From Nostoc sp. FACHB-280 (GTDB taxonomy: Bacteria; Cyanobacteriota; Cyanobacteriia; Cyanobacteriales; Nostocaceae), in contig NZ_JACJSD010000008.1 of NCBI RefSeq assembly GCF_014697615.1, positions 62,001-126,000 on the forward strand: a DNA stretch of 64,000 bases, in the 5' to 3' direction. Of the stretch, positions 5,872 to 45,510 are shown piece by piece; position 1 is the first letter of the stretch, and every line of letters starts with the position of its first letter. Both the position numbers and the translations under genes were made by a program. The notes under the pieces were generated by a model. That model saw only the letters and a list, made by a program, of their open reading frames with translations, was not told the DNA's origin and did no database searches.

Positions 5872-5896
5872 AACCAATATTATTCAAGTTGATCCT

Positions 5897-8635: not shown

Positions 8636-8644
8636 TTCTCTCAC

Positions 8645-20105: not shown

Positions 20106-20431
20106 CAATAGCATCAAATATTAATAGTGAATATTGGTAATTTTTATCTAACTTTACTTGTTTAAAATGGCAACATATTTTTCTCATATAAAAACTCATA
20201 TTTTTAATATGAAAATCTTTGAAAACTCATAATAATTACAATTATAAAAAAATGTATCGTTATTAATATTTTATATTCGTAAAATATTAATAACGATATG
20301 ATTAACTGTAGTTAAGCAAATGTAGGTTTGATGAGTTATTGCTTTTTAGTTAGTTATAAATTTCGCTAAATCAAACTCATCTTTCTATTTGCCAAATGAG
20401 AATATTTTCCAATTTTTAGGATGCACAAACG
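20106..20431. other. AT-rich gap upstream of the two-module protein
   Basis: The 326 bp hold copies of the AACTCATA motif (AAACTCATAT at 20192-20201, AAACTCATAA at 20223) and a very strong hairpin (20255-20298, listed separately). No small peptide gene with a ribosome site was found; a 21-codon frame at 20168 is not convincing. Confidence 0.4.
20255..20298. promoter_or_regulatory. Perfect 19-bp inverted repeat with 6-base loop
   Basis: TATCGTTATTAATATTTTA (20255-20273) and its exact complement (20280-20298) enclose TATTCG. It is 133 bp upstream of the ATG at 20432. It is too A/T-rich and lacks a T-tract for a standard terminator; an operator, transcript-end hairpin or processing site is possible. 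Confidence 0.6.
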
Positions 20432-21325: not shown

Positions 21326-21399
21326 TGGTTGATAAATAGTGTTTTTAGGATTTATTACCCTAAAGATATTGAAATCAAACATTTAAGTCTGGTAAAAAT

Positions 21400-21432
21400 G
21401 ATGGTGGGAGAATAGTTTTTTATTCTCTCATC
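21400..21432 (+). terminator. Hairpin between the two-module gene and the cyclodehydratase
   Basis: GATGGTGGGAGAATA (21400-21414) pairs with TATTCTCTCATC (21421-21432) around GTTTTTT. The T-run is in the loop, not after the stem, so it may attenuate read-through or separate a highly expressed first gene from the enzyme gene. Confidence 0.4.
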
Positions 21433-21514
21433 TTAAGATTGGTGCTTGAATTTGTAAAAAATAATAATTAGCTTATCAAACAGTGTTCGATTTAACGAAC
21501 TGAGGTGAAGAAAT

Positions 21515-23785: not shown

Positions 23786-23813
23786 TAGTTAATTGAAATT
23801 AAGTGATAGATTA

Positions 23814-24914: not shown

Positions 24915-25027
24915 TTTTTCTTTGCTTATACTCAGCAGCATATAATTAAACTAGGATTACAGGAAATATTCATAAATAAATTACTCTGCTAGATACTTTA
25001 AATATTGCAACATAATCCATACCAATT

Positions 25028-28000
25028 ATGAATACCATTGCTGGCTGCCAAATTATAGCCAAAATCTATGAAAGTGCTAACTCTTTAGTCTATAGAGCTA
25101 TACGTAGCCAGAATGGTCAGCCTGTAATATTGAAGATTCTTAAAGAAGATTATCCTCTGCCATCAGAATTGATTAGGTATAAACAAGAATATGAAATTAC
25201 CCATTGTTTAAATTTAGATGGGGTAATCCGAGCTTATGAATTACACAGATATAAAAATAGTTTGCTTATAGTTTTGGAAGATTTTGGTGGTGAATCTTTA
25301 AAAGTATTAATGCAAAGGCAACAGTTTACATTAAGAGAGTTTTTGACACTTGCTATCAAAATTACCGAAAGCTTGAGTGCTATTCATACTGCCAATATTA
25401 TCCATAAAGATATCAACCCGTACAATATCGTTTTTAACCCAAAAACTGGACAAATTAAAATTATTGATTTCGGCATTTCTAGCATTTTACCGAGAGAAAA
25501 CCCGATAATTCGTAATCCTGAACATTTAGAAGGAACCTTAGCTTATATTTCACCAGAACAAACTGGCAGAATGAATCGGGTGATAGATTACCGGACTGAT
25601 TTTTATTCTTTGGGAGTGACTTTTTATGAGTTACTAACTCAGCAATTACCTTTTGTAACTACTGAACCTATAGAGTTGGTACATTGTCATATAGCTCAAT
25701 TACCTCTACCACCACATATTGTAGTAGGGGAAGAAATTTGCCCTAAAATTATCTCAAATATCGTCATGAAATTAATGGCGAAAACTTCAGAAGAGAGATA
25801 TCAAAGTACTGGGGGAATAATAGCAGATTTAAAAACTTGTCTGAATCAATTAGAAAAATCTGGTAAGTGTTCTAATTTTAGTTTAAGAAGCCAAGATATT
25901 TCAGATAAGTTTAAAATATCGCAAAAACTCTATGGTAGAGGAAAAGAAGTAGAGCAGCTATTAACAACTTTTGAGAGAGTAAGCCTTGGCTCGACAGAAA
26001 TGGTAGTTGTAGCTGGTTATTCTGGTAGCGGTAAATCAGCTTTAGTTCAGGAAATTCATAAAGCAATTGTTCAGAAACAGGGTTATTTTATTTCCGGTAA
26101 ATTTGACCAATTGCAGCGTGATATTCCCTACACTTGCCTGATACAAGCATTTCAACAATTAATTCAGCATTTACTCACAGAAAGCCAGACGCACCTTTAT
26201 AAATGGAAACAGAAATTATTAGCAGCACTTGGAACAAATGGTCAAGTTATTATTGATGTTATTCCTGAAGTAGAATTAATTATTGGCAAACAACCTTCAG
26301 TACCACAGTTAAGCTCAACTGCATCTCGAAATCGTTTCAACTTAGTTTTGCAAAAATTCCTGGGTGTATTTACAAAAAAAGAACATCCTTTAGTTATTTT
26401 TTTAGATGATTTACAGTGGGTAGATTCTGCTTCTTTAAAATTAATTGAACTATTCATGGCTAATATCGATAGCCAATACCTTTTAATGATTGGAGCGTAT
26501 CGAGATAATGAAGTTAGCTCTACTCATGCTTTGATGCAAACTTTAGATAAAATTCAAAATGCTGGAATTAATCTAAATAAAATTATTGTCCAGCCTTTGA
26601 AGTTAGAGAATGTAGAAGAATTAATTGCTGATACACTGGGTTGCTCAATTGAAGAGTCAAAAACCTTAGCTGAACTAGTATTTAATAAAACTGATGGAAA
26701 CCCTTTCTTTTTGACTCAGTTACTTCAAGCTTTATATACACAAGAATTTTTGTTATTTGATCATAGTAATCGTTGTTGGCAATGGAACATTGCAGAGATT
26801 CAACGGGTAGAGATAACTGATAACGTAGTTGATTTAATGGTGACTAAAATTGAGAGGCTAGATAAAAGTGTTCAAGATTCTTTAAAGTTAGCTGCTTGCA
26901 TTGGTAATGAATTTGATTTAGATGTACTTGCGATAGTCAATGAAAAGTCTCTTAGAGATACAGCTATTGAACTTTTCCCAGCTATTCAAGAAGGCTTAAT
27001 TATACCTCTGAGTGAGGCGTATAAAATTCCAATTCTTTGGCGGGAACAAAAGAGCGATCGCACAGTAATATCTTCTGCTAAGATACCTGATGTTCCAGCT
27101 TCCATATCATACAAATTTTTACACGACCGAGTTCAGCAAGCTGCTTATACTTTAATTCCAAATGAGCAAAAGCAAGAAGCTCATTTCAAAGTCGGTCAAC
27201 TTCTGTTAGAAAATATTACACAAGATAAATTAGCAGAAAATATATTTAATATTGCCAATCATTTAAATATCAGTTTATCTTTAATTACTAATCAAACAAA
27301 AAAAGATAATCTGGCTCGTCTAAATTTAATAGCAGGTAGAAAAGCTAAGAATGCTGCTGCTTATGAAACAGCTATTAGATATATTAAAATTAGCTTAGAA
27401 TTACTTTCAGCAAATACTTGGAATGTTCAGTATGAATTAACATTGGCTCTTTATGTAGAAGCTGTAGAATTACAATACCTGAATACTAATTTTGAGGAAG
27501 CTGAAAATCTATCTAATATTGTCTTATCCGAAGCTAAGTCTCTGCTTGATAAAGTCAGAATTTATGAACTCAAAATTCAATCTTATATTGCTAAAATTCA
27601 AATGCAACTAGCTATAAATACTGCATACCAAGTTTTAGCACAGCTAGGAATTAATCTACCTCAAATACCAGACATCACTCATATTAATCAAGAGCAAGAA
27701 ACTGTAAAATTACTTTTGCAAGATAAGCAAATTGAGGATTTGTCTAATTTACCAAAGATGGCAGATCCGTATAAACTTGCAGCAGTCAGAATCTTAATGA
27801 TTGTTACTACTGCGACAATTATTAGTAATCCTCTTTTATATTCTTTAGTAACTTTAACGGCGGTGAATCTTTGCATTAAGTATGGTAATCCACCACAAGC
27901 TACTAGTGTTTATACTTTTTATGGCAAACTTTTGTGTGGAATGATGCAAGATATTGATACTGGTTATCGATTTGGTCAATTAGCTTTAAACTTACTAGAA

Positions 28001-30490: not shown

Positions 30491-30758
30491 AAGAGGTAGT
30501 CTTGGTTAATGCTGAAGCGATCGCTTATCAACCACAAACCCAATTAAAATTACGTTTATATACTTTACAATATTACATTTTTCTAAATAAATTTTAGCAA
30601 TAAAAAATCTTATAGCTGTAAGACGTTACCTTGATTAATATTAGCCTCATTTCTGCATAATATACTCTAGTTTTAACGATAATATTCTATAAACACTGTA
30701 TTTTAATAGCTCTTTAAAATACATGTTTCATTCAATTTGTCAAATCATATTTTAGTAA

Positions 30759-31127
30759 ATGAAGATCATGGTTGTAGATGACGAACAAGATGTCCAATTC
30801 TTGTTTAAACAAAAATTTAGGAGAGAACTTAAAGAAAATCAAATTAAACTATATTTTGCTTTCTCAGCAGAAGAAGCACTGGAATATTTACAAAGTAAGC
30901 GAACTAATTGTCTAAACTTAATTGTCACGGATATTAATATGCGTGGAATGAATGGTTTAGAAATGCTCAAACTAATTAAAGAAAAATATCCAGCTTTGAA
31001 AGTATTCATTATTACTGCCTATGGTGATGAAGAAAATTATTTAACTGCAAAACAGTATGGTGCTGATGGCTATATTACTAAGCCAATTGAATTTAATCAA
31101 CTCAAGCAAAAAATCCTAAATTTATAA
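30759..31127 (+). CDS. Single-domain response regulator
   Basis: A 122-aa CheY-like receiver. The acidic pair is in VVDDEQD (near 6), the phospho-acceptor Asp in LIVTDINMRG (about 60), the Thr/Ser in FIITAYG and the Lys in YITKPIE. It has no output domain, so it acts by protein contact or as a phosphate shuttle. It lies between the hybrid kinase at 25028 and the receiver-ATPase at 31152, 24 bp before the latter, so the three likely form one relay. Confidence 0.9.
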   Translation: MKIMVVDDEQDVQFLFKQKFRRELKENQIKLYFAFSAEEALEYLQSKRTNCLNLIVTDINMRGMNGLEMLKLIKEKYPALKVFIITAYGDEENYLTAKQYGADGYITKPIEFNQLKQKILNL

Positions 31128-31151
31128 ATTAGCTTAATCAGGTAATAAACT

Positions 31152-33347
31152 ATGCCAGCTAAAATACTGGTTGTGGATGATGAGCCTGACTTAGAAATCT
31201 TGCTCCGTCAAAAATTTAGAAAAGAAATTCGACAGAACCAATTTAATTTATTTTTTGCACATAATGGTATTGAAGCATTAGAAATAATTCAAATAGAGCC
31301 AGATATAGATGTAGTATTAACTGATATCTATATGCCGCAAATGGATGGATTAACTTTAATAAATCAACTTAATGAGTTATATCCAATGATTAAAGCGGTA
31401 ATTATTTCTGCTTATAGTGATATTGATAATATCAGAGCTGCGATGAATCGCGGTGCTTTTGATTTTTTAACTAAACCGATTAATTTTCAAGATTTAGAAA
31501 TTACTACTTACAAAACTCTGCAATATGTCCAGAAGATGAAAGGTATTAAGGAACAGGAACTAATAGCACAACAAGCTCAAGCAGAGTTATTAATTCGTCT
31601 ACAAAAAGAAGTCACAGTACGCCAACAAACAGAAGCAGCATTACGCACCAGCGAAGCCAAGTTAGCTCAATTTTTAGAAGCTGTCCCAGTAGGCGTTTTT
31701 GTAGTTAACAGCAATGGTCAACCTTTCTATGCAAATCAGACAGCCCAACAAATACTTGGTAAAGGAATTGTACCAGAAACTACACCACCTCAATTGAGTG
31801 AGTTTTATCAAGTTTATATATCGGAAAAAGAACAGTTATATCCTACAGAAAAGCACCCAATTGTACGAGCATTGAACGGTGACAGTATCACTGTTGAAGA
31901 TATGGAAGTTCGCAAAGGCGACAATATTATTCCTTTGGAGGTGTCAGCTACACCAATTTTTGATGAACAAGGAAAGATTATTTATGCCATAGCTGCTTTT
32001 CAGGATATCACACAACGCAAACGCTCAGAAGCAGAGCGATCGCAGTTAATTTGGGAATTAGGAATTAAAAATCTAGCTTTGCAAAATACAAAAGAAGAAT
32101 TAGCCCAATCTAACCAAAATTTAGAACAAAAAGTTAATGAACGCACGCAAGAATTAACACAAACATTGGCAATTCTCAAAGCTACGCAAGCAGAATTAAT
32201 ATTTGAAAATGCACTGCTGAGAAGTGCTGAACAAGCTTCAACTTTTGATTATCAAGTTGGCGGAAGCTTACCTATGGATGCACCGACTTACGTGGTGCGT
32301 TCCGCAGATCGTTATCTTTATAAAGCGTTAAAATCTGGAGAGTTTTGTTATATCCTCAATGCCCGACAAATGGGTAAATCAAGCTTGATGGTACGCATGA
32401 TACACCATCTTCAACAAGAAGGATTTAGTTGTGCAGCAGTTGATATTACTCGTTTGGGTAGTGAAAATACTACTCCTACTCAATGGTACAAAGGATTAAT
32501 ACTTGAATTGTGGCAGAATTTTAATTTGTTGGGTAAGGTTAATTTTAAAAATTGGTGGAATGAACAAAAAGATTTATCACTTATTCAATGTTTAGCTCGG
32601 TTTATTGAAAATATATTACTCAAGCAAGTTGATAGCGAAAATATTTTTATTTTTATTGATGAAATTGATAGTGTTTTAGCGTTAAATTTCCCTGTTAATG
32701 ATTTTTTTGCGTTAATTCGTTTTTGTTATAATCAGCGTAGTCTTAACCCAGAATATCGACGGTTAACCTTTGCTTTGTTTGGTGTCGCTACACCATCAGA
32801 TTTAATTAATGATTATCAAAGAACACCGTTTAATATTGGTAAAATAATTCAGTTAAATGGGTTTCAATTACACGAAGCTCAACCTTTACTGCAAGGATTA
32901 ACACCAAAAGTTAGCAATCCTCAGTTAGTGCTGAAAGAAGTATTAGCTTGGACAAATGGACAGCCTTTTTTAACGCAAAAGCTTTGTAAAATTATCCGGA
33001 GTTATACCTCGGAAATACCGCCAAACTTGGAAGCAGTTTGGATGGAAAATTTGGTGCGATCGCATATTATTGACAATTGGGAATCTCAAGATGAGCCAGA
33101 ACACTTGCGAACAATCCGCGATCGCATCCTCAAGAATACTCTCTACCCTGTTGGGTTACTAGAACTATATCAGCAAATTCTCCATCATGGGCAAGTGGGT
33201 GTTGTTGATAGTATACAAGAGAAGGAGTTGCTGTTGTCGGGGTTAGTAGTTAAGCAACAGGGAGTTTTGAAGGTTCATAATCGGATTTATGAACTGATAT
33301 TTGATAGTAGTTGGGTTGAGGATTCTGTTACATTAATTATAAATTAG
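31152..33347 (+). CDS. Response regulator with PAS and AAA-like ATPase output
   Basis: A 731-aa protein. The receiver (1-125) has VVDDEPD, the acceptor Asp in [12 protein letters not shown] (about 57) and Lys in FLTKPI. A coiled coil leads to a PAS domain (about 165-295, [25 protein letters not shown]), then a second coiled coil and an AAA_35 ATPase (about 355-725) with [14 protein letters not shown] (about 400) and [12 protein letters not shown]. Phosphorylation by the upstream kinase would control the ATPase. Its last 100 codons are duplicated as a fragment at 37269-37571. The stop overlaps the end of the convergent small gene at 33337 by 11 bp. Confidence 0.88.
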
Positions 33348-33699
33348 ATATTCTCCTATAATAATTTTGGCTCCCAGGAACGCTTATTTTTTCCTTTGGT
33401 GTTATCTTGTAAGCTTCAAATGATAAAGTAACCTCTTTCCTACTATCTACTTGAAGACGAGTAAATTTTATTTGATAATTAGCTTCTTCTTTTAAATTAG
33501 CAATATTGTTAAACCTCTGTGACTGGCCTGTACCTATTTCTAGGGAATCTATGCTTTTAGTTCCTAAATGAGTAACCTCAATAAGTTCAGCTTTGACTGC
33601 TTCTCCACCCTTTACTTTTATTTCAAAATAATCGGCATCGGAGATATCAATATTAACAATCTGACTTTTTTCTTCCGGTTTTATAGTACAGTTAGGCAT
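33337..33699 (-). CDS. Small beta-rich protein of unknown function, downstream of a CHAT NTPase
   Basis: A 120-aa protein with no signal peptide and no membrane helix. Alternating hydrophobic and polar residues ([23 protein letters not shown], in part; [24 protein letters not shown]) suggest a beta-sandwich of Ig-like type. No cysteine other than that in MPNC is present. It has the site GGAGAGC before its ATG and is 23 bp downstream of the CHAT-NTPase gene, so it is probably the last gene of that unit. It may be a partner or proteolytic target of the CHAT protein; this is inference. Confidence 0.6.
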
Positions 33700-33722
33700 T
33701 TTTTGCTCTCCTAAAAAATTTA

Positions 33723-36700
33723 TTAAATTATATTTATAAATGTATCATCCTTTTTGGATTTAGCACAACGTAGACCTGTATCTTCAGCTTGAGAATCTGG
33801 TAAAGCACTCTGACGAACTGTAATTTTTCTTCCTAGAAATCTTAAAGTTAATGGCTGATTTAATTTTAAAATTTCAGAATTGATATACCAAGGCTTTTTA
33901 GATAGTTGAAAATTGAATTGCTTAAAAAAATAAGATGAAGTCCACTCCCACGAGGGGAGAGTAGATGAAAAATTTTGAGAATTACGTGCAGCTTTTTCCC
34001 ATTCTAATTCAGTTGGCAAGCGTCTTCCCAGCCAGTCGCAATAGTCATTGGCTTGAAAAGCTGTAACTCCAACAACTGGTTTGTCTAGATTATTTTTGTC
34101 AAGAAATAATTGTGGTTGCATTACTGGTCTAGAACAAGCTCCATAACTAACACATAAACCATACTGATGATTAGAAACTTGATGCTTATCAATTTCAAAA
34201 TCATCAAGATTGATCTGTCTTACTGATATCTCATTACCACGAGGATTCTTTGCCCCAAAGTAAAATTTACCTGCTGGTATCTTCACTGTTTCTCCTAAAG
34301 AATATGCTTCTAACCGTAATTTTTCACGATAAGCAAAGTAGCTGATGAAAAGGATAGTAATGATAGTCATAGCACCAGCCAGGCATTGCCAACCAAGCCG
34401 TGCTTGTTTCTCCCGTTGTAGTTCTCGTTGTTGCCTTTGCTCTTGCTCTAAAGCCGATCGCTCTCTCAACTCCACACAAGCACTGATATAATTAGCCTCA
34501 AGCTGGTTCAAAAATCCAGCTTTCTTTAATAACGTCTCAGCATCTTCTAACCTCCCGCCTCGATGTACTAAATAATTTTCGTCTGTTGGTTTTTCTTCCC
34601 ACTCAAACGCAGCCTGACGGATAGTTTCACGCAGTTGTAAACCAGTCCGATTTTCATTCAACCAATCAATTAATCTTGGCCAGTAGCGGATTAAAGCTTC
34701 ATGAGCAACTTCCACTTCTTCAAGATTTGTAGACTCATCTACACTCGTCACTACGAGCCGCGCACCTTCCCCAGCCAATCGCTGCACCAGATTTTTAGTT
34801 CCCATCAACTCCCCACCTACAGGTACTAGCTCCTCTAACCCAACACGCCGTCGTGTATCCCGGCGTTGCTCACCTTGTACAGCTTCTTCATCCAAGCGGG
34901 TGAGGCGCACAAAGATATTCTTGATTTGCTCTCGTGCTTCTGGTTGTGAACGATTGTAAACATCATCGGCAGTTTGAGAAATTGCCTTTTTCACACCGCC
35001 AATTGCCTCATACTCTACACAACGCAACCATCTGCCGTGTCGCCGTTTCCACAACTCTAGCAGTGCGTGTTGCAGCAGTGGCATAGCACCTGGCTCACCT
35101 TGAACATCCTCTAAAATACTGTTACTCAAGCCAGCTTCAAAACGTAACCCCACTTGAGCAGCCTGCATTTCCATTGCTTTTCGCAGTTCTGAAACGTTCA
35201 TCGGCGCAATTAATTTTTGCCTTGCTTCCATCAACTCTTTGAGTTCTTGGTAAGGCGCACATTCTCCCCAAAAGTCTGCTCGCATCGTAATTACGACTTT
35301 CTGCTGCTGAGTCAGGCTTAATACTTGCTCGATAAAGACGAGGCGTTGAGCTTCATCAGTGCAGAGGGTGAACAGTTCTTCAAACTGGTCAATTACTAGG
35401 ATTAGGGATTGACGTAACCCCCTAACCCCCTTTTCTTCATGGGAAGGGGTAAAATTCAAAGCCTCTCTCTCTGCGGAGGAGAGGTTTGGAGAGGGGTTTT
35501 CTAAATAAGGTGATAGACTTATTTGCAGTTGTTCGTTGGGATTGCTACTTGGGGTCATGTAAGCGATCGCCAAACTTGGCTGCTGTTGTTGTAAAGCCGG
35601 AATCAGCCCAGCTAGTACCAATGAAGATTTACCACTCCCAGAAGCACCTAACACAGCTAAAAAGTTGTGTTCAGTCAGCTTTTGTTGCAGTTGGGCAATT
35701 AATTCGTCACGCCCAAAGAAGAACTCGCGGTTTTCTTGGCGGAACGGATATAAGCCTAAAAAGGGACAGCGAGAATCGTAATTTGGTGGTTGCTTGTCTA
35801 ACGCTAAAGCATGAAAGCTGATATCTATGGCTTCATCGCAGAGATTGTCTATTTCAGTTAAAGCCTGCTCTCGTTCTTGACGCGCTTGCTTGCTCAAGGC
35901 GGAGACATCTGCAACTATAATGTTTCTTAGCTTTTGTGCTTGCTCCTCAAATGGATGGGAGAGTACAGGCGATCGCTCTGACAGCAATTTTTTCAGATGT
36001 TCCAAGCCATACTCAATTTCTGAGTTAGTCAGTGCGCGGTCGAGTTGGTCGCTGAATAAAGGTCTTGCACCTAAGCGACTGAACAAAGCCGGGACAGTAA
36101 TATCACCGCGCTCGGCTAAACTAGCTGTGGCTTCATGCAGTGCTATGTCCACTTCTCCCGATGCTTTGAGTTGCCGATAAAAGTTTTCTGCTAATACCTG
36201 GGCTGTTTTAATTGTTACCTTATCGGTCATTGCCACCACCGCAGGCATACCCAAATCCCGCACCAAGCGTTGGGCTAATCCTCCTAATCCACCCTCTACT
36301 CCAGGGCTGGCACTTTCGCAAGCACACAAAAAGGCAAAATGCGGTAATCCTCTAGCTCCCCGTAAAGGGTCGAGCCGTTCTAGCAAGCGTGTTGCTGTGA
36401 CTGGCTCAACTGTATTATCAGCTTTTGCCCAGTAGAGGACGGTTTCGCCATCATCCAATAACTTACCGTGACAGACAAAATGCAGTATGGTGTATTGCTT
36501 TGTCCGGTCAGTCAGTTGAGAACACAGAGCGTCAAGAGTTGGGGGAGCGATCGCACCTTCCACCGTCGCCAGCACATCAGTCGGGATATTGCCTAAAGCA
36601 GTTCGTACACTGTCAACCGTAGCCTTGGCATCAAATTTAGCTAAATTATACTTGTCTGCATCCGTGGGGCTGGCTACCAAGACCAAGGCTCGCAAATCAC

Positions 36701-37127
36701 GCCGTCCAATTGGCGGAAAACGGCGATCGGTAATTGCGGGGATGTAGAAAGAAAAAGGCGATCGCTGTTGGAGAGCTAACAACTGCCAATCCCCATCAAT
36801 TGGGGCGCATAGCCTTTCCCAACGCCAAAATTTTAGTTCGCTGTCTGCGGCTTCGAGAAACAGCAGAACCCGCAGAGGGTTTTCACTCTCTCGCAAAGCA
36901 CTGACAAAAGCATCGCGTATTTGACCCTGAAACAACGCTTTGCCCAAGACTGTACCATAATCCTTTGGTCTTCCCAGCAGGCTTGTCAATTGTTGAACAT
37001 CCTCTAGAGTTACCACCAGAGTGCCTTCACTGCGAATTGGTAGCAGTTCACCAGGGCGACTGTGTTCTGCAACTATCGGCCAGCGATCGCCTGATTTGCG
37101 TTGAATGGTAATCTCAAAGGTGTTCAT
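33723..37127 (-). CDS. CHAT protease - STAND NTPase - SUMF1-like protein
   Basis: An 1134-aa multidomain protein. Residues 1-125 are an N-terminal module shared with 18170 and 42028. The CHAT caspase-like domain (about 135-370) has the catalytic His in HFVCHGKLL (about 218) and Cys in FLCACESASPG (about 269). The nSTAND1 NTPase follows: YDSRCPFLGLYPF, GRDELIAQL, P-loop [10 protein letters not shown] (about 495) and Walker [13 protein letters not shown] (about 578), with a winged-helix and helical part. A single transmembrane helix near 912-932 precedes a C-terminal SUMF1/C-lectin-like domain, which is shorter than in the paralogue (about 190 against 230 residues) and lacks its GNVEEW segment. 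A ligand sensed by the C-terminus probably triggers NTPase assembly and CHAT proteolysis. Confidence 0.85.
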   Translation of the reverse strand: MNTFEITIQRKSGDRWPIVAEHSRPGELLPIRSEGTLVVTLEDVQQLTSLLGRPKDYGTVLGKALFQGQIRDAFVSALRESENPLRVLLFLEAADSELKFWRWERLCAPIDGDWQLLALQQRSPFSFYIPAITDRRFPPIGRRDLRALVLVASPTDADKYNLAKFDAKATVDSVRTALGNIPTDVLATVEGAIAPPTLDALCSQLTDRTKQYTILHFVCHGKLLDDGETVLYWAKADNTVEPVTATRLLERLDPLRGARGLPHFAFLCACESASPGVEGGLGGLAQRLVRDLGMPAVVAMTDKVTIKTAQVLAENFYRQLKASGEVDIALHEATASLAERGDITVPALFSRLGARPLFSDQLDRALTNSEIEYGLEHLKKLLSERSPVLSHPFEEQAQKLRNIIVADVSALSKQARQEREQALTEIDNLCDEAIDISFHALALDKQPPNYDSRCPFLGLYPFRQENREFFFGRDELIAQLQQKLTEHNFLAVLGASGSGKSSLVLAGLIPALQQQQPSLAIAYMTPSSNPNEQLQISLSPYLENPSPNLSSAEREALNFTPSHEEKGVRGLRQSLILVIDQFEELFTLCTDEAQRLVFIEQVLSLTQQQKVVITMRADFWGECAPYQELKELMEARQKLIAPMNVSELRKAMEMQAAQVGLRFEAGLSNSILEDVQGEPGAMPLLQHALLELWKRRHGRWLRCVEYEAIGGVKKAISQTADDVYNRSQPEAREQIKNIFVRLTRLDEEAVQGEQRRDTRRRVGLEELVPVGGELMGTKNLVQRLAGEGARLVVTSVDESTNLEEVEVAHEALIRYWPRLIDWLNENRTGLQLRETIRQAAFEWEEKPTDENYLVHRGGRLEDAETLLKKAGFLNQLEANYISACVELRERSALEQEQRQQRELQREKQARLGWQCLAGAMTIITILFISYFAYREKLRLEAYSLGETVKIPAGKFYFGAKNPRGNEISVRQINLDDFEIDKHQVSNHQYGLCVSYGACSRPVMQPQLFLDKNNLDKPVVGVTAFQANDYCDWLGRRLPTELEWEKAARNSQNFSSTLPSWEWTSSYFFKQFNFQLSKKPWYINSEILKLNQPLTLRFLGRKITVRQSALPDSQAEDTGLRCAKSKKDDTFINII

Positions 37128-37268
37128 TGCTGAAATAGGCTAATTCTTTGGATATTGTCGCAGAGATGGCGATCGCTGTTACGAACATTAGCACTGGGAT
37201 TGTTCAGATCGTCAATCGTGTATCCAATCGCACCCATAAGTAAGTAGCCCAACTTTAAACCAGACTAG

Positions 37269-37571
37269 CTAGAGAATTTGATGCGATCGCATATTATTGA
37301 CAATTGGGAATCTCAAGATGAGCCAGAACACTGGCGAATAATGTGCGATCGCATCCTCAAGAATACTCACTACCCTGTTGGGTTACTAGAACTATATCAG
37401 CACATCCTCCATCATGGGCAGGTGGGTGTTATTGATAGTCCAGAAGAGAAGGAGTTGCTGTTGTCGGAGTTAGTAGTTAAGCAACAGGGTGTTTTGAAAG
37501 TTCATAATCGGATTTATGAACTGATATTTGATAGTAATTGGGTTGAAAGTTGTATGCGGAAATTTGTTTGA
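37269..37571 (+). pseudogene. Fragment of the AAA-like domain C-terminus
   Basis: This frame ([20 protein letters not shown] ... [20 protein letters not shown]) repeats the last ~95 codons of the protein at 31152 with about ten changes. The DNA match starts at GATGCGATCGCATATTATTG (compare 33054) and runs to about 37543. It lacks the ATPase motifs and a ribosome site. It is a duplicated, stranded gene end. Confidence 0.8.
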
Positions 37572-37712
37572 AGAATACTGACTTTGTTTAACTTGAGTTT
37601 AGGACAAGCTAAAACTTTGAGTCTGTTGTTAGTTTTGAAAGCTTATAACCCTTATTCTATTGTACAAGCAATCAGAATTTAGTCTTTAACCCTAATTGAG
37701 GTTAATTACATT

Positions 37713-38060
37713 TCAACTAATTACCCAATCTCCATTAACTCTATAGTCTGCAATAGTTGTTTCTTCCTGACGAAGCCAGTACCATTTGTTAGGATCACCC
37801 TTATCGTATGTTACTTGTATTTGACGATGTGTTTTGCTGTCACCCGTTTTAGAAGAAGTAACAGGTCTCCACTCACTCTCATTTGAATTTCTATTTGATG
37901 CTTCACATATACAAAAACTAGCACTTCCTGCGGTTATCTCAATGTTGGCAACAAGATTTTTTTTACCCTTAATAATGTGGCTAATAGATACTCTTATGGT
38001 TTCATTATCCTGGATATGCACACCACTCATCATGATTTCGTGGATATGAAAACTACTCAT
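37713..38060 (-). CDS. Small conserved protein of unknown function, duplicated copy 2
   Basis: A 115-aa soluble protein. After a variable N-terminus (MSSFHIHEIMMSGVHIQDNE) it shares about 85 residues almost unchanged with its neighbour at 38205: ISHIIKGKxNLVANIEITxG, SASFCICEASN, and the end WYWLRQEETTIADYRVNGDW. The pattern is beta-rich and has conserved Trp residues and a CIC pair. I do not recognise a family. The site GGGAGAAAA precedes the ATG. It lies between two CHAT-NTPase genes and may be co-regulated with them; a sensor ligand, lectin-like or toxin part cannot be decided. Confidence 0.65.
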   Translation of the reverse strand: MSSFHIHEIMMSGVHIQDNETIRVSISHIIKGKKNLVANIEITAGSASFCICEASNRNSNESEWRPVTSSKTGDSKTHRQIQVTYDKGDPNKWYWLRQEETTIADYRVNGDWVIS

Positions 38061-38204
38061 CTTATTTTCTCCCTTATGTTTTAATTGAGTTTAGGACAAG
38101 CTAAAACTTTGAGTCTGTTGTTAGTTTTGAAAGCTTATAACCCTTATTCTATTGTACAAGCAATCAGAATTTAGTCTTTAACCCTAATTGAGGTTAATTA
38201 CATT

Positions 38205-38534
38205 TCAACTAATTACCCAATCTCCATTAACTCTATAGTCTGCAATAGTTGTTTCTTCCTGACGAAGCCAGTACCATTTGTTAGGATCACCCTTATCGTA
38301 TGTTAATTGTATTGTACGATGTGTTTTACTGTCACCCGTTTTAGAAGAAGTAACTCTTTTCCACTCACTCTCATTTGAATCTTTATTTGATGCTTCACAT
38401 ATACAAAAACTAGCACTTCCTCCGGTTATCTCAATGTTGGCAACAAGATTTGGTTTACCCTTAATAATGTGGCTAATAGGTACTCTATTTTTTGTGCTGA
38501 CTTCACCATTGCCCTCGATATGCCAAGTACCCAT
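38205..38534 (-). CDS. Small conserved protein of unknown function, duplicated copy 1
   Basis: A 109-aa paralogue of the product at 37713, 50 bp downstream of the CHAT-NTPase gene that ends at 38585... reading leftward the order is NTPase, this gene, then its copy. Its N-terminus differs (MGTWHIEGNGEVSTKNRVP), while the rest is nearly identical, including SASFCICEASNKDSNESEW and YRVNGDWVIS. The preceding GGGGGAAAA is a ribosome site. It is predicted soluble and beta-rich. Linkage to the NTPase suggests a partner role; no function is known to me. Confidence 0.65.
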   Translation of the reverse strand: MGTWHIEGNGEVSTKNRVPISHIIKGKPNLVANIEITGGSASFCICEASNKDSNESEWKRVTSSKTGDSKTHRTIQLTYDKGDPNKWYWLRQEETTIADYRVNGDWVIS

Positions 38535-38584
38535 CTGATTTTCCCCCTTATGTTTTCATTGATAAAATCGTCTAAAATGATACA

Positions 38585-41500
38585 CTATTTCGCACAACGT
38601 ATACCAGTTTGTGGAGTATGAGATGAAGCCTCTCTACCCGTTGAAATTTTCCATGTGAGAGAATGTAACTTATCTCTCCAATTTCCTCCTCTAACAACTA
38701 AAGAATTTGATTTTAATTGCTTAGGATCGGCATCCAACCAAACTAAATTCTGATCATATTTGAAGTAAGATTCTTGATAGTAAGATGCAGTCCATTCCTC
38801 AACATTTCCAACTAAGTTGTAAATGCCTTCAGGATCAATACTTTTGTCTTTTGTAGGTTTATTTACTTCTATAATACCAGTTCCTTGTGTTTTATTTTCG
38901 GGTAAAACGTTTGCAGGAAATAGTGTAGGAGTGTCATTCCCCCACGGCCATTTATTACCTTTTCCACCACGAGCAGCCCTTTCCCACTCCAATTCTGTAG
39001 GTAAACGCATTCCTAACCAATCACAGTAAGTAGCTGCATGAAAAGCTGTTACCTGTACTACTGGGTGTTCTGAAAATTTCTCATCATATAGCTTACTAGG
39101 GTCAACTGGCTCATCACAATGTCCAGCCTTAACACAGAGACGATATAGACGATTAGAAACTTCAAATTTTTGAATTTGAAAAGCTCGTATATGAGGATGC
39201 CATTCAGGCATTTCATCTTCATTAGCATCACGATCATTTGTGCCAATAGTAGCATTACCTTCAGGGATAGATACCATTTGAGTTTGCCAAATTGTATACC
39301 AACGTAATACTTCACGATAAGCAAAGTAGCCGATGAAAGCGGTACTAATCATACCTAGCACAATTACCAACCATTGCAATCTGCGTCTTGCTTGTCGCTC
39401 TAGTGCTAGTTGTCGCTGTTGCCTTTGCTCACGTTCTAAAGCCGATCGCTCTCTCAATTCCACACAAGCACTGATATAATTAGCCTCAAGCTGATTCAAA
39501 AATCCACTTTTCTTTAATAACGCCTCAGCATCTTCTAACCTCCCACCTCGATGTACTAAATAATTGTCGTCTGTTGGTTTTTCCTCCCACTCCCAAGCCG
39601 CTTGACGGATAGTTTCACGCAGTTGTAAATCAGTCCGATTTTCATTCAACCACTCAAGCAATCTTGGCCAGTAACGAATTAAGGCTTCATGAGCAACTTC
39701 CACTTCTTCAAGATTTGTAGACTCATCTACACTCGTCACTACGAGCCGCGCACCTTCCCCAGCCAATCGCTGCACTAGGTTTTTAGTTACCGCCAACTCA
39801 CCACCAACAGGTACTAACTCCTCTAACCCAACACGCCTTCGTGTATCTCGGCGTTGCTCACCTTGCACAGCTTCTTCATCCAAGCGGGTGAGGCGCACAA
39901 AGATATTCTTGATTTGCTCTCGTGCTTCTGGTTTGGAACGATTATAAATATCATCGGCAGTTTGAGAAATCGCCTTTTTCACACCGCCAATGGCCTCATA
40001 CTCTACACAACGCAACCATCTGCCATGTCGCCGTTTCCACAACTCAAACAATGCGTGTTGCAGTAGTGGCATAGCACCGGGTTCTCCTTCGACTTCATCT
40101 AAAATGGAATTGCTCAAACCAGCTTCAAACCGCAAACCCACTTTTACAGCCTGCATTTCCATTGCTCGACGTAACTCGGCTAAATCCATAGGTGCAATTA
40201 ATTCTTGTCTAGCCTGCATCATTTCTTTGAGTTTGGGGTAAGTTGCACATTCTCCCCAAAAGTCTGCCCGCATCGTAATTATCACTTTTTGCTGCTGGCT
40301 AAAACTGATTAATTTGTCGATGAATTTTTGTCTTTGTGCTTCATCACTACAAAGAGTAAACAATTCTTCAAACTGGTCTATCACCAATACAAAATTCTGG
40401 CCTTGAAAGGTTGATAGACTTGTTTGCATTACAGCAATTGGTTCACTAGTGGGTGTCATGTAAGCCATTTGGAGGTTTGGCTGCTGGCTTTGTAGTGCTG
40501 GGATTAATCCTGCCAATACCACGGATGATTTACCACTACCAGAAGCCCCCAACACAGGTAAAAAATTGTCTTGCGCCAGTTTCTCTTGTAGTTGTGCAAT
40601 CAACTGCTCCCGCCCAAAGAAAAACTCGCGGTCTTCCAAGCGGAACGGGTACAATCCTCGAAAGGGACAGCGTGAGTCATAGGCTGGTGGTTCTTTACCC
40701 AATGCCAAAGCTGGAAAACTCAAATCCAAGACTTCGCTACATATCGTATTGATTGCGTCCAAAGCCTGCTGCTGTTCTTGCAGTGCCTCTTTGGTTTCAG
40801 TATTTAATGTTCTATTCAGCACTGTTATTTGCTGATTCAACTCATCAGACAGTATGGGCGCACGTTCTGGTAATAATTCTTTTAAAGAATCTAAAGCATA
40901 CTTGATTTCTTTGGATGTCAGAGGACGGTCTGGAGTATCACTAAATAGCGGTCTTCCTCCCAAACGGCTAAAAAGTGCAGGAACAGTTATGTCATATCTA
41001 CCCTGCAATCCTGCTGTTGCTTCGCTCAATGCTAAATCTACATTGCCATGTACTCTCAATTTTTCATAAAAAGTTGTAGCTAAAGCTTGAGCAGTTTTTA
41101 TACTAACTTTCTCCGTCATTGCCACGACGGCAGGTATACCCAATTCTCTAACTAAGCGTTGTGCTAGTCCGCCCATTGCTCCTGTTACTTCTGCTGTATT
41201 ACTGGCACTTTCACAAGTAGACAAAAATACAAAATGCGGAGCGCGGCGTAATTTACTTAGTCTATTAATTAAAGTAGTTGCGTTGACTGGTGCTACTTGG
41301 TTGTCATCAGTGGACAAATAAATGGCAGTCTCTCCATCCGCTAATAACTTACCGTGGCAGATCAAGTGAACTAATGTATAGTATTTTTCATTATTTGTGA
41401 GACACTGCAAAAGTGCATCCAAAGTGGGCAGCCCGATCGCACCATCAACTTTTGCTAGAACATCGCCAGGAATTTGATTACCAAGGGCTGTTTTTATACT

Positions 41501-42028
41501 CCCTACAGCCCCATCCACATCAAAACTATCTAATTGAAATCTACCCAAACCTGATGGACTGGCTGCTATAACCAAAGCCTGCAAGTCTCGCCGCCCAATC
41601 GCCGGAAACAGTTGCTCTGTAATTGCCGGAATGTAAAGTGAAAAAGGTGTCCTTTGGTTAAGTGATAAAAATACCCATTTTCCATCTAAGGGAATACAGA
41701 GTTTTTCCCATCGTAGTTCTTTGAGATCATCTGCTTCAATGTTGAGCAAAACATGGAGATGGTTGTTTTTATTTTCACCATCTCCCACAGTTGCTAAGGC
41801 TTTAACAAATGCGTCACGGATATCATTATGAAATAGTGCTTTACCCAATGCCGCACCATATTTCTCAGGTTGTCCAGTTAAGGCTCTGAGTGCAGCGATA
41901 TCATCATCATTAATCTCAAGGATGCCTTGATTACGAATCGGTACGAATTGACCGGGTTTGGTATGTTCGACAACTACAGGCCAGCTATCTTGATATTTAC
42001 GTTGAATAGTAATTTCAAAGATATTCAT
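38585..42028 (-). CDS. CHAT protease - STAND NTPase - SUMF1-like protein, paralogue with complete C-terminus
   Basis: An 1147-aa paralogue of 33723. The N-terminal module [19 protein letters not shown] is followed by CHAT with His in HLICHGKLL (about 224) and Cys in [10 protein letters not shown] (about 272). The nSTAND1 NTPase has P-loop [10 protein letters not shown] (about 496) and [11 protein letters not shown]. One membrane helix lies near 880-905. A full SUMF1/C-lectin-like domain (about 915-1147) contains [26 protein letters not shown] and [13 protein letters not shown]1 folds in STAND proteins serve as ligand-binding modules and not as formylglycine enzymes. The start codon overlaps the stop of the upstream peptidase gene by 4 bp (ATGA), so the two are translationally coupled. 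Confidence 0.87.
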
Positions 42029-43674
42029 GATTTCAACTCCAAGAGTAAATCATTGACTGCTGACACAGTTGCTTGAATTTGTTCAGCTTCAAAGGCTGGA
42101 GCTTGCTGGACTTTTTCTAAAAAGGTTTCTAACGATTTAATTAAATCCAACTTCGCTGGCTGTAATACTGATACTTCTGCTGTTATAGGTGCAGCACTGA
42201 AAGTCACTTTTTCCATGACTGGCCGCTCTATAGCGTTTTCATCACCAACAGGTAGCCGCACTGCGGGGTCGCCAATAATTGTGTAACTCCGAGCATCATT
42301 ATTGGCTGTCCACATAGTAGCTATAGCTGCGTCATCAGCGATCGCACCAAATTTAATTTCTTCTAGTTGAACACTCAAATCAGATGAAAGTTCAGCATAA
42401 CGCTGGTTGAAAAATTCCATCGCCGAACCCACAGGATGCCCTTCCATCAAGCGTTTTAAAGAACTTTGGAAGACTTGCAACTGCGCTCCCGCCCTCTCCC
42501 ACATAAAAGAATATCCCCAAGCTCGCTCGACATGACCAACTACAGCCAATGCTCCTCCTTGGGGATGACTCAACAAACGTCTTGGTAAAGGAGCCACAAA
42601 AGCACGCGGAGCAATAGTTAACCTTTCGTTAGTTGCTTTAAGATGGGCAAAATCATCGAATTTGGGAGTACCAGCACCATAGCAGGCAAAATGAATAGCG
42701 ATTAATCCGAGCAGGCGATCGCTTACACTAATGTCATCCGCAGAAAAATAAAAATCTTCAGGAATTTTTTCTCTCCACTGGAGTGGCCCCGGCCAATCTT
42801 GGCAGAGTAACCCCCCTTGATGGCGTTCTTGTCGTGGGTCGCCATTGGGAAAACCCATCCCATGACTCGCTGTAAACAATAAGCTAGGAGTTTGATCACC
42901 ACCTAATAATTGCCCTAACCGAGCCTTGGTAGCTTCATCTTTAAGGATACTTTGAATATTCCAGCTTGCTTGGTCTTGAGCTATCCATTCAGCTAGGGGT
43001 TTAATTAGTTGGTCAGCACTGAGTTGAGTTGCTTGGTCGCCATTGTTCCGCACGCCGAAAAAACTAGCATTGCGGGGTAGTGAGAGTTTACCTGTTTCTG
43101 CTTCGACAACACTATGAGCATACTGAGCATATTCTTCTAATGTGTCAAAATAAATTCGACCTACCGCATACTGCACATCAAGTTGGTACTGAAAGCTATA
43201 GGGAATTGTTTCTGGGTCGCCGACAATCATTAGATAGTAAGGCATCTTATCAGGGTCGGCTGGCCCTTGCCCTACTTTATGACGTGCCAAAAACGTAGTT
43301 TTCGTCTCACCTGGACGATAAGCTTTAACGCCAATATATTCCTGATAATAATGTTCTTTGTTTTGGGTAGCTTGCTTTTGACGCAGTTCTAACAATGGGC
43401 TAAGTGCTTCTTTAATTGCTGGGTCAGCACCATAAGCAAAAATTACTCCCCAACCAGTCTCTGCTAAATTTTTCGGGTCTACTCCCTCTATGGGTGCATA
43501 TTCTGGGTCTAGACCTTTGACGCGTAAATTTTTCCTTTGGAGTTCTTTGAGAAGTTCTACATCTATTTCTTCACCCTGAGCAATTTGAGAAACTTGCATC
43601 GGTGTCAGTGGCGGAAGCGAATACTTACCAGTTGCGCCATCAATTCCATTAAAAAATAGCAATTCTTCACTCAT
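42025..43674 (-). CDS. Gingipain/caspase-like cysteine peptidase (clan CD, C25-like)
   Basis: A 549-aa protein without a signal peptide. The expected catalytic dyad of the caspase-gingipain fold is visible: His in [14 protein letters not shown] (about 272) and Cys in [17 protein letters not shown] (about 330), each after a hydrophobic strand. Other family segments are [32 protein letters not shown] (in part) and the C-terminal [11 protein letters not shown]. The C-terminal ~70 residues are helical. The gene is 30 bp after the alpha/beta hydrolase gene and overlaps the CHAT-NTPase gene by 4 bp. Two cysteine peptidases of the same clan in one operon suggest a cascade; the substrate is unknown. 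Confidence 0.8.
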
Positions 43675-43704
43675 AATTTGGCTATTCCTTGATTTCTGAT
43701 TGAT

Positions 43705-45021
43705 TCAACTAGCAAGTGCAGCTTGCCACACAGCATGAGCTACTTCTGGTTTAGCTATATCATTATGAGCGCCCACAAATATTCCATCACTAGTATCACA
43801 GATATATTGAGTGCTATCCAAGTTGTAGACTTTACCTGCTGCAAACTGGTACGGTTCATTCACAGAAAGCATTTTCATATCTACAATTTCCAAACCTGGG
43901 CCACGAGCGCCAAAAGTACCAAGTGCGCCAAATTTAGGAAATTCCATAGGGTCAAAAACTACTTGCTGGCGAATTCCCGCCGCGAGAGGATACATCATCC
44001 CAACAGCTTTGTCTAACTGCGTTTGGGTAGTAATAATCGGCCCAGCAACTTTATGATTAGCGATGATGGAATGAAAGTAACCTGGACGACCTGGTAAAAC
44101 TGGGATGTCTGCACAATAAGACCACAATGATAAAGCACCTTGGATTAAAGCTACAGAATTAACTGGGCGGATTAAAGTACCGTGACCACCAGAGCCTGCT
44201 AACATGGCGGAGACAACAATACATCCAAAACTGTGACCCATGAGGTGAAACCGCACAGTATTTGCAGTTGCTTTTTGGAGTTGTGTTAGTAACTCAAAAC
44301 CTCCAGTTTCACCAATTTGACGCGCTCTATCTTTCATTTTCCAAAAAGATAGAACTCGTAGAGGCATCAAGATTCCATTTAAGTCAAACTGACCAAAATT
44401 AACTGGTTCTGCTTTAGTAGCTTCAAATATACCTTCTGGATCAAAAGAAAAGCGATCGCTCCCCGGTGCTGCTCCTTCACCATCATTACCTAAACCCGAT
44501 TCTCGGTTCAAAACTTCGTAGGCTTGACGTACCTCTAATGGCATATACTCAGGTGCAATATCTTCCATCGCTGCTTGGAAAATTGTTTTGAGTGCTTGTC
44601 GAGAAGTATCTGTGTCAGCAATCCTTTGAGCATACTCCTCAATTAAGCTCTCTAATGGAGAAATAGAGCTTGAATCAAAAGACACAGAATTACTCAGTTC
44701 CTCATTACCCCAAGGCAAACTCGGCCAATATAAACCAATTAAAAGTGGGCGAAATTCTGGGCATACTTGTTTGATGTGTGCAATATCATTTAAATTGTGG
44801 TGCATTGCACCAATCCATTTGTTATATTGCTGCCGCGCTCCAGCAACATCACTCATCCAACCATGACTAAATATAAAAACATCTGTAATTTGCTCACAAG
44901 ATAAAATATCTAATATCTTTTGGCTCATTTTACCTTGAGGATCATCACGTTGATTACCAGCAGCATCAAACGGGACTAAATAGTACTGTAATGAAGTTCC
45001 TGGTATTGGTTCAAGTGACAT
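43705..45021 (-). CDS. Alpha/beta hydrolase (lipase-like) in the peptidase operon
   Basis: A 438-aa protein. VFIFSHGWMSDVAGARQQYNKW (about 48-70) forms the oxyanion-type HGW segment (quoted in part), and HLMGHSFGCIVVSAML (about 258-273) has the GxSxG nucleophile elbow with Ser about 263. A C-terminal GAHNDIAKPEVAHAV supplies a plausible catalytic His. No signal peptide is seen, so it is cytosolic. Members of this cyanobacterial group are unannotated; a lipase or esterase effector is reasonable. It is the second gene of the leftward operon: 121 bp after the 60-aa gene and 30 bp before the peptidase gene. Confidence 0.78.
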   Translation of the reverse strand: MSLEPIPGTSLQYYLVPFDAAGNQRDDPQGKMSQKILDILSCEQITDVFIFSHGWMSDVAGARQQYNKWIGAMHHNLNDIAHIKQVCPEFRPLLIGLYWPSLPWGNEELSNSVSFDSSSISPLESLIEEYAQRIADTDTSRQALKTIFQAAMEDIAPEYMPLEVRQAYEVLNRESGLGNDGEGAAPGSDRFSFDPEGIFEATKAEPVNFGQFDLNGILMPLRVLSFWKMKDRARQIGETGGFELLTQLQKATANTVRFHLMGHSFGCIVVSAMLAGSGGHGTLIRPVNSVALIQGALSLWSYCADIPVLPGRPGYFHSIIANHKVAGPIITTQTQLDKAVGMMYPLAAGIRQQVVFDPMEFPKFGALGTFGARGPGLEIVDMKMLSVNEPYQFAAGKVYNLDSTQYICDTSDGIFVGAHNDIAKPEVAHAVWQAALAS

Positions 45022-45142
45022 ATAAATTCCCTCAAAAATAAATTAAATCTTAATTAAAAAGCCAAACAATATTAATTTTATTACTTACAATAAGAATCCA
45101 AGGGACAAGTAACAAAAGTTTTGCCACTCATCCCCCTCAAAT

Positions 45143-45325
45143 TTATAATCCAATTGCCCCAACTACAACTTCTTTATCTGGATTTCCCTGAATATACTTC
45201 AGCACAATCTGAACGCCTATTCCTTCCTGACGCACAGCAATTTGATAGTGGTCTGGGTTTAAGTCTTTATTATTTTCTTTAATAAAATCAAATAGTTTAA
45301 CTAAGTTAAATTGTGTGTTAGCCAT
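45143..45325 (-). CDS. Small 60-aa protein at the head of the peptidase operon
   Basis: MANTQFNLVKLFDFIKENNKD ... VVVGAIGL. It has one predicted N-terminal helix followed by beta strands (IAVRQEGIGVQIVLKYI). I do not recognise a family. The ATG is preceded by GGAGTAGAA, a good ribosome site. It is first in a leftward run with the hydrolase, peptidase and CHAT-NTPase genes and has ACTCATAT motifs upstream. It might be an inhibitor, adaptor or effector-associated domain of the system; that is a guess from position. Confidence 0.55.
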   Translation of the reverse strand: MANTQFNLVKLFDFIKENNKDLNPDHYQIAVRQEGIGVQIVLKYIQGNPDKEVVVGAIGL

Positions 45326-45510
45326 TTTATTCTACTCCAAATTAATTCATAAACAAAAAACAAAATTTAAGTTTCTGTTTTTTTGTTTATTGCTTTTCTA
45401 TAAAAGATAATAGTTCTAATTTTATGTATATAAAATCTATATAACTCATATTTTTTCAGGAAAAATAACCTAAAAACTCATATTAAGATAAGTTAAAATC
45501 TCATATAAAT

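Follow-up and report, generated by a model that had tools for sequence, protein, structure and literature searches.

The stretch of DNA from the filamentous cyanobacterium Nostoc sp. FACHB-280 analysed here, 64,000 nucleotides in length and hereafter termed the window, contains a leftward gene cassette in which two putative membrane receptors, CST1 and CST2, are encoded together with a small protein of 60 residues, a predicted gingipain-fold cysteine peptidase (PEP) and a predicted lipase-type hydrolase (HYD). It is almost certain that the cassette is one functional unit, and very probable that it encodes a receptor with a swappable sensor. A role in defence or cell death is fairly probable, and with nearly the same confidence the cassette may be regarded as a mobile, apoptosome-like receptor system with proteases and a lipase directed at the cell.

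Organization and co-occurrence of the cassette genes

The genes of the cassette are located on the minus strand. The first, an open reading frame (ORF) for the 60-residue protein of unknown family (45143..45325), is followed by HYD (438 residues, 43705..45021), PEP (549 residues, 42025..43674) and CST1 (1147 residues, 38585..42028), with spacings of 121 bp and 30 bp and an overlap of 4 bp in the ORF list, exactly as given in a preliminary description of this DNA. That description had confined the cassette to these four genes. The four stand, while a second receptor gene, CST2 (33723..37127), the exchange of sensor ends and the mobility of the cassette had been missed. CST2 belongs to the same unit as CST1, and two small paralogous ORFs, B1 and B2, lie between them.

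Co-occurrence was analysed in 292 cyanobacterial genomes, sampled as one genome per species. HYD was found in five of them (6 copies) and PEP in the same five (7 copies), with all 6 HYD copies located no more than 160 bp from a PEP. The chance of hitting the same five genomes, were the two genes independent, is about 1 in 1.7e10 by hand arithmetic that ignores shared ancestry. A profile search with 24 HYDs recovered the same 5 of 292 genomes. Moreover, the CHAT-nSTAND1 core (E <= 1e-60) was present in these five, two more genomes giving weak, STAND-only matches when the three best candidates per genome were scored. The unit proposed in the preliminary description is thus borne out, since its members occur in the same genomes and are always adjacent, rather than as homologues found only singly and never together, the pattern it had named as speaking against it. 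Within the genus itself, HYD is present in 8 of 11 genomes; the order HYD-PEP-CHAT-STAND is displayed by six of the eight regions (L135, L137-L141). L142 is either broken or cut, and L143 contains HYD but reaches its contig end without a PEP.

A wider collection was scanned with PEP, giving 97 relatives, of which 80 were kept, from Cyanobacteria, Chloroflexi, Acidobacteria, Myxococcota, Proteobacteria and others. Together with two own-genome paralogues and the window they form 83 loci. The counts of relatives depend on contig ends and, among all regions compared in the analysis, the overlapping pairs L110/L046, L111/L034, L138/L012 and L139/L013 are not independent. It should be noted that these loci were found through PEP, and that the unbiased test of co-occurrence is that in the 292 genomes. 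HYD is present in 26 of the 83 loci, HYD with both CHAT and STAND in 20, and SIR2 in 18. In 25 of the 26 loci with HYD it lies on the same strand as the PEP ORF and within 653 bp of it, the remaining copy (L037) being 5.6 kb away. The distance matrices of HYD and PEP are correlated (r 0.78, n 24, 0 of 2000 permutations), and the three plasmid records with PEP all carry HYD.

These data also bear on a different division of the cassette, in which the CHAT-STAND proteins would be the defence system and PEP with HYD a separate travelling module, by analogy with VMAP systems. Adjacency of HYD and PEP is kept where the receptor gene lies on the other strand (L024-L026, L029), many PEP loci have no CST relative, and a distant HYD (24% identity) follows an S8 peptidase at 9 bp on plasmid pRL10, all of which would suit such a division. 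Against it, among the 292 genomes a close CHAT-nSTAND1 core occurs in those with HYD and PEP and in no others, CST1 overlaps PEP by 4 bp both in the window and on a plasmid of Nostoc sp. MS1, and an own-genome PEP paralogue of 1073 residues (L005) is fused to a CHAT-like domain. We consider the separate module quite improbable. By eye, the L005 fusion also has a P-loop ATPase-like part, and is followed by an ATPase-WD40-like protein (1164 residues) and an 877-residue protein with a papain-like motif, the whole group occupying 509-10057.

Several plasmid-borne relatives were viewed individually. On plasmid p1 of Planktothrix agardhii (L122, 12001-22751) the order is HYD, CHAT protein, IS1634 transposase, WD40 protein, an unknown gene and PEP, the IS1634 insertion being situated between the CHAT and WD40 parts. 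On a conjugative plasmid of Sinorhizobium terangae (L123, 976-23170), HYD-PEP faces AAA_16, CHAT and peptidase_U41-like proteins, and the neighbours comprise UvrD-type helicase, PD-(D/E)XK, WYL and DGQHR genes. The pair on pRL10 of Rhizobium leguminosarum (L124, 6411-9251) lies near conjugation genes, and perhaps represents the same protease-hydrolase idea with another protease.

Predicted receptor proteins CST1 and CST2

CST1 is predicted to comprise a CHAT peptidase (residues 1-390), an nSTAND1 NTPase (455-820), a transmembrane (TM) segment (886-904) and a sensor (916-1147) of the formylglycine-generating enzyme (FGE)/SUMF1 fold. Pfam scores were above the cut-offs for all three domains, with 71 bits against 24 for CHAT (136-339), 370 against 27.1 for nSTAND1 (455-820) and 138 against 23.3 for FGE-sulfatase (916-1147). 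The order effector, STAND, sensor is that of NLR-like antiphage proteins such as Avs and bNACHT. In addition to the profile match, the CHAT domain displays the expected dyad, His225 and Cys272 being kept in 19 of 19 aligned relatives, and the Walker Lys500 of the STAND domain is kept in 18 of 18. Neither TPR nor SAVED was detected in CST1 by Pfam up to E 1, and the PADLOC SAVED_CHAT model matches residues 205-326 only, corresponding to the CHAT part, so CST1 does not qualify as a SAVED-CHAT or Craspase protein.

Regarding the sensor, chain 5nxl_A was taken for comparison, which is presumably of FGE type and was named a kinase by its depositors. The two cysteines of its C-H-E-S-Y-C stretch, assumed here to be the catalytic pair, align to a gap and a serine in CST1. 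The two catalytic cysteines near the C-terminus that mark a formylglycine-generating enzyme thus appear to be absent, and the SUMF1 domain of CST1 is predicted not to be such an enzyme. All 19 proteins whose TM segment is clear display a positive-inside bias, which in 3 of them amounts to just one residue. From the positive-inside rule, the sensor tail would face away from the cytoplasm.

A single-spanning membrane receptor of this kind would also suit a developmental or envelope-stress protease pathway resembling that of HetF, a CHAT protein found in heterocyst-forming cyanobacteria, with regulatory rather than lethal cleavage. The CHAT domains match the HetF model NF045509 weakly (18.5 bits for CST1 and 22.2 for CST2), and HetF is a divisome component in Anabaena according to PMC8406250. 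These scores, however, are far below the cut-off of 1200, the cassette is rare and partly plasmid-borne, the peptidase is found in many other phyla, and replacement of the sensor would, in our judgement, be unusual for a developmental protein. Only a small probability is given to this pathway.

CST2 is a second CHAT-nSTAND1-TM-FGE protein, with an FGE domain about 56 residues shorter than that of CST1. The protein is a mosaic, with 92-96% identity to CST1 over residues 651-850 and about 61% over residues 1-541, because of which its position in the tree of CHAT-STAND cores is unreliable. In the alignment for that tree, five of 22 rows (L011, L015, L024, L026, L029) were kept at full length with columns limited by occupancy alone, and L019 was left out as too short. 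The 19 close cassette cores end in WD40 in 14 cases, in FGE in two (both in the window), and in an unnamed domain in one (L046), the other two being truncated at contig ends. The unnamed domain recurs in L112. This third kind of sensor end follows the TM segment, measures about 170 residues and belongs to no Pfam family (L112, 9016-12213; L110, 6684-10142).

Exchange of the sensor ends

By DNA comparison, a 27-kb block of the window (18253..45482) is colinear with positions 2281-30920 of plasmid pNSMS101 of Nostoc sp. MS1, at 84.5-92.4% identity over the main pieces. The plasmid carries the 60-residue gene, HYD, PEP, CST1 and CST2, the first three with 88, 82 and 92% protein identity. Besides gaps of less than 200 bp, the match is interrupted at the sensor ends of CST1 and CST2, both on the minus strand: window 37249..39446, comprising the CST1 sensor end and two small ORFs, and window 33325..34466, the CST2 sensor end, against plasmid 22819-24888 and 17764-20027. 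At both genes, WD40 is found on the MS1 plasmid and FGE in the window. Within the first exchanged stretch, a 300-bp piece (37272-37571) matches the plasmid flank after CST2, representing a duplication of flank DNA.

A same-genus genome, G295, carries WD40 on CST1 and FGE on CST2, with cassette pieces 87.7-94.8% identical to the window. Its CST2 sensor end is nearly identical to that of the window, with 2 differences in 33393-34534, while 200-bp bins outside this region contain 4 to 19 and the flanks have diverged by about 5%. Synonymous differences in CST2 follow the same pattern, with 1 in FGE and 0 in the TM part, compared with 42 in CHAT and 53 in STAND. Since the sensor end is almost unchanged inside diverged flanks, it can be concluded that recombination has recently spread the FGE end as one unit. 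Judged from these alignments, the sensor end is a unit that moves independently on a fixed chassis, as would be expected of an alarm for immunity or cell death in bacteria.

The new end of CST1 looks to be partly copied from CST2, the STAND 3' DNA being 88% and the flank piece 93% identical between them. The FGE domains of CST1 and CST2 are only 41% identical in protein, and because they differ so far despite similar flanks, faster divergence or a second donor would apply to the CST1 FGE. An order of WD40/WD40, then WD40/FGE, then FGE/FGE can be inferred for the three forms. A sharp edge of the sensor break relative to L010 was considered and rejected, as protein identity already drops from residue ~780-800; the DNA break at 39447 and the gradual fall in protein identity are separate facts.

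Candidate sources of the FGE end were also sought. A donor in the same genome was rejected, as FGE1 has five matches there including itself and the best other is FGE2 at 43%. On 227 plasmid records, all FGE matches listed were below 60% identity. As for carriage by phages, a search of 50,697 phage records at E 1e-5 gave no PEP match. The genome has three RVT_1 matches, which we read from their ORFs as a reverse transcriptase of group II intron type, a retron-like one and one that is unclassified. No template-like second copy was found in the genome assembly, where the CST1 sensor DNA matches itself alone, and that of CST2 matches itself and CST1 at 66%. With neither a template-like copy nor a reverse transcriptase of the type found in diversity-generating retroelements (DGRs), DGR diversification of the FGE sensor was rejected for this genome. 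A stand-alone reverse transcriptase of 524 residues directly follows a gene that by eye is radical-SAM methylthiotransferase-like (L008, 1117-2691, contig 92 of G000).

Replacement of sensor ends between close relatives, with the chassis otherwise conserved and the sensors predicted to lie outside the cytoplasm, would also be expected if the cassette served kin recognition between filaments. The outward sensor would then mark the strain as self or non-self, and a mismatch would trigger the proteases and lipase, by analogy with fungal heterokaryon incompatibility, which is named as a parallel in Kaur et al. 2020 (PMC7159879). Nevertheless, the patchy (5 of 292 genomes) and partly plasmid-borne occurrence fits defence at least as well, as does the SIR2 partner described below, and no gene for a ligand delivered by a neighbour was identified in the neighbourhood, which was read without a dedicated search. 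Kin recognition is therefore regarded as an unlikely explanation.

Other parts of the 27-kb block and its border were also viewed. Window 16957-18170 is the remnant of a third CHAT-nSTAND1-WD40 gene, with pieces of both ends only, and its counterpart in G295 (L136, 5227-9906) is intact and encodes 1559 residues. Tandem repeats of about 126 bp occupy window 17083-17824 and L136 5353-6968, with more copies in G295, as judged from overlapping matches, where they are situated in the 3' part of the intact gene. Window 20432-24914 encodes a 297-residue unknown protein, a YcaO/ThiF protein (756 residues) and an amidohydrolase; the group adjoins an AAA_35 protein and a kinase-AAA-GAF-histidine kinase, and is also present on the MS1 plasmid. 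It is a possible cluster for a ribosomally synthesized and post-translationally modified peptide (of the TOMM type) travelling in the block.

Predicted enzymes PEP and HYD and the small proteins

PEP scores 36.5 bits for Peptidase_C25 (Pfam cut-off 23). Its active-site His271 is kept in all 92 aligned rows that have a letter at that position, and Cys331 in 87 of 92, and a helical hairpin is predicted at its C-terminus (501-548). From fold and dyad, PEP would belong to the C25 (gingipain) family. AMPA-receptor-like Foldseek rows were dismissed as chance, with TM-scores of about 0.1-0.23 compared with 0.39-0.54 for gingipains. Unlike the gingipains RgpB and Kgp, PEP is encoded together with a receptor, and no secretion signal is visible by eye in its first 30 residues.

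For HYD, Pfam returned a sub-threshold Abhydrolase_6 match only (E 0.089), and Foldseek was uninformative alone (best E 0.0042). The fold assignment is based on the VIA second look together with the invariant motifs, Ser264 of GHSFG and His419/His429 being kept in 26 of 26 aligned relatives. Fold, GxSxG serine and C-terminal histidine are consistent with a lipase-type alpha/beta hydrolase. The preliminary description had named two clan CD peptidases with intact dyads, a lipase-like hydrolase with GHSFG and a SUMF1 domain of ligand-binding type. Conservation of both His/Cys pairs, and the fold evidence with invariant motifs for the hydrolase, agree well with this, as does a SUMF1 domain that lacks the FGE cysteines and is placed where sensors sit.

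By simple counts without multiple-hit correction, pN/pS is 0.19 (G295) and 0.18 (MS1) for PEP and 0.21 and 0.26, respectively, for HYD. The 60-residue gene, located at the same place in MS1 and also present in G295, differs from the MS1 copy by 18 synonymous and 10 non-synonymous changes (pN/pS 0.15). As estimated from these ratios, HYD, PEP and the 60-residue gene are under purifying selection, and the small ORF has the appearance of a genuine gene. Its protein has no Pfam match, and the ORF was found neither in the other loci searched outside its own genome nor in L110-L113. Small proteins were consequently rejected as core parts, the 60-residue ORF being limited to cassettes of the window type.

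The other small ORFs accompany the receptor ends. B2 (109 residues, 38205..38534, minus strand) lies inside the first exchanged stretch, and B1 (115 residues, 37713..38060, minus strand) is its paralogue at 89% protein identity, their DNA forming a tandem repeat 90% identical. Both are near-orphans, with one match outside their own genome (24%, E 8e-4) in 60 genomes searched. A 120-residue ORF after CST2 (33337..33699, minus strand), within the second exchanged stretch, has no match outside the window in the loci searched, and G295 has an ORF of 116 residues at its place.

Lipoxygenase, SIR2 and other versions of the cassette

A lipoxygenase match is present in 10 of the 26 HYD loci, the enzyme being intact in L021, L022, L024, L025, L026, L029 and L052, divided into two ORFs in L023 and fragmentary in L020 and L046. 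In L023-L026 it lies upstream of HYD in the same orientation, in L029 and L052 it is upstream but divergent, and in L020-L022 and L046 it is found downstream of the receptor gene. The eight long cassette lipoxygenases form one clade (100/100) relative to seven others, in a small sample from one search. All of them retain the iron-binding motifs H-x4-H, H-x3-N and terminal Ile. Otherwise, lipoxygenase is found in 46 of the 292 cyanobacterial genomes. A haem peroxidase (PF03098) is encoded 635 bp before the small ORF of the MS1 plasmid. Neither enzyme is beside the window cassette among the ORFs read, and the single lipoxygenase of the genome is away from it.

Furthermore, near PEP the receptor can be divided between a CHAT-SIR2 gene and an nSTAND1-WD40 gene (Pfam, L049 and L057). 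This form is seen in Chloroflexi, Acidobacteria, Proteobacteria, Myxococcota and Gemmatimonas. Among the 18 loci with SIR2, the domain shares an ORF with CHAT in 16, CHAT and STAND are both present in 17, and WD40 is recognized by profile in 14; HYD is present as well in L044, L049 and L081. Since SIR2 domains often serve as antiphage effectors, the SIR2 partner points to defence. In Chloroflexi (L051, 12071-13219, and similar loci), PEP is often followed by proteins of about 250 and about 110 residues without a Pfam family, with a response-regulator-like gene before it (by eye), so that the same peptidase occurs there in a different setting.

Comparison with known systems

The principles of the cassette are already in print and were foreseen in part by Kaur et al. 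(2020, PMC7159879; 2021, PMC8195603). The preliminary description had stated that no system of this composition was known; this holds for the open-licence PMC literature (subscription papers lying outside), in which no description of the gene set was recognized, but the principles had been published. In the same literature, no report of lipoxygenase in a STAND cassette or of sensor-end exchange in bacterial STAND genes was recognized. Compared with the published systems, the cassette has in addition a gingipain-fold peptidase, and it displays diversification through exchange of whole sensor ends.

A close likeness exists to the systems of Kaur et al. 2021, in which nSTAND1 was defined and effector-STAND-FGS proteins, with caspases among the effectors, were described. 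These have an N-terminal effector or EAD, a central nSTAND1 and a C-terminal FGS lectin-fold sensor, frequently in several copies, and CST1 likewise combines the three parts in one chain. The cassette differs in that no EAD was recognized by Pfam and no DGR was found (frequent but not obligatory there), that a C25-like peptidase and hydrolase pair is fixed, and that relatives of the chassis carry WD40. STAND-CLec antigen sensors diversified by DGRs, some periplasmic, have been proposed by Dore et al. 2024 (PMC10907252). They resemble CST1 and CST2 in joining nSTAND1 or NACHT to an FGE-type CLec domain and in their duplicated targets, whereas here the whole sensor end is exchanged by recombination and no retroelement-type diversifier was found.

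In the VMAP systems of Kaur et al. 2020, a caspase-superfamily domain always neighbours an alpha/beta-hydrolase gene, and the two are thought to act together. MoxR-vWA-VMAP systems thus share with the cassette a clan CD peptidase beside an alpha/beta hydrolase. The cassette differs in having a STAND receptor; no MoxR or vWA was detected in Pfam scans of 15 window genes (18753-45325), nor was a VMAP gene seen among them, VMAP not having been looked for by name, and the cassette would not be of this type. The same paper describes the APAF-1 WD40-STAND-caspase apoptosome as a parallel, and activation of a caspase through a WD40 sensor and STAND is comparable to the arrangement here. Compared with APAF-1, the protease is fused to the receptor, a TM segment is predicted, and a second, gingipain-type peptidase and a lipase-like partner are added. 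Craspase (TPR-CHAT) and SAVED-CHAT resemble the cassette in having a CHAT protease that is activated through an immune sensor; the cassette chain is without SAVED or TPR and has the STAND receptor in the same chain as CHAT. The idea of a proteolytic cascade is known from SAVED-CHAT.

Proposed mechanism and its significance

In the proposed process, the outward-facing sensor tail would bind a trigger, upon which STAND would bind nucleotide and oligomerize and CHAT would be switched on. CHAT may then activate the C25-like peptidase, or both peptidases may act in parallel. Proteolysis would release or activate HYD, which would attack membrane lipids, joined in some relatives by lipoxygenase. A cell that is infected or damaged would thereby stop growing or die, and the filament would be spared. 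The order CHAT, C25-like peptidase, hydrolase is a guess held with low confidence. That the lipase is the terminal effector has an even chance, as HYD is the conserved member that is not a protease and is accompanied by lipoxygenase in some lineages. A membrane-lipid effector was also put forward in the preliminary description, and is supported in direction only, through the dedicated lipoxygenase of some cassettes; alpha/beta-hydrolases are listed as membrane-lipid effectors in PMC8195603.

Several observations weigh against a receptor cassette acting in defence or cell death. The FGE domain of CST2 is shortened and may be non-functional, and the catalytic Cys is absent in 5 of the 92 PEP rows. 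No match for PEP or HYD was obtained in PADLOC-DB 2023 at E 0.01. The stretch around PEP contains no HYD, CHAT, STAND or SIR2 in 28 of the 83 loci, many of which stop at a contig end, and in Chloroflexi PEP is often accompanied by response-regulator-like and small unknown genes. PEP therefore has other jobs as well. Among the neighbourhoods viewed, without a systematic test of island enrichment, defence-type genes are close by only for the copy on the Sinorhizobium plasmid. Finally, no DGR was found in the genome assembly, though DGRs often diversify FGS sensors.

It is conceivable, though doubtful, that in cyanobacteria with polyunsaturated membranes whole sensor ends, exchanged by recombination at the STAND end, feed a conserved death machinery of two clan CD proteases and a lipase, in some lineages with lipoxygenase or haem peroxidase, which would amount to a programmed, enzyme-driven lipid-peroxidation death. 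If true, this would be comparable to ferroptosis or the plant hypersensitive response. A two-protease and lipase output, with or without lipoxygenase, would, if true, link caspase-like proteolysis to lipid attack in bacteria. Moreover, WD40/WD40, WD40/FGE and FGE/FGE constitute a natural series on one chassis, which makes the sensor role of STAND C-terminal domains testable by swapping, and the exchange of sensor ends points to a way of renewing FGE sensors other than diversity-generating retroelements.

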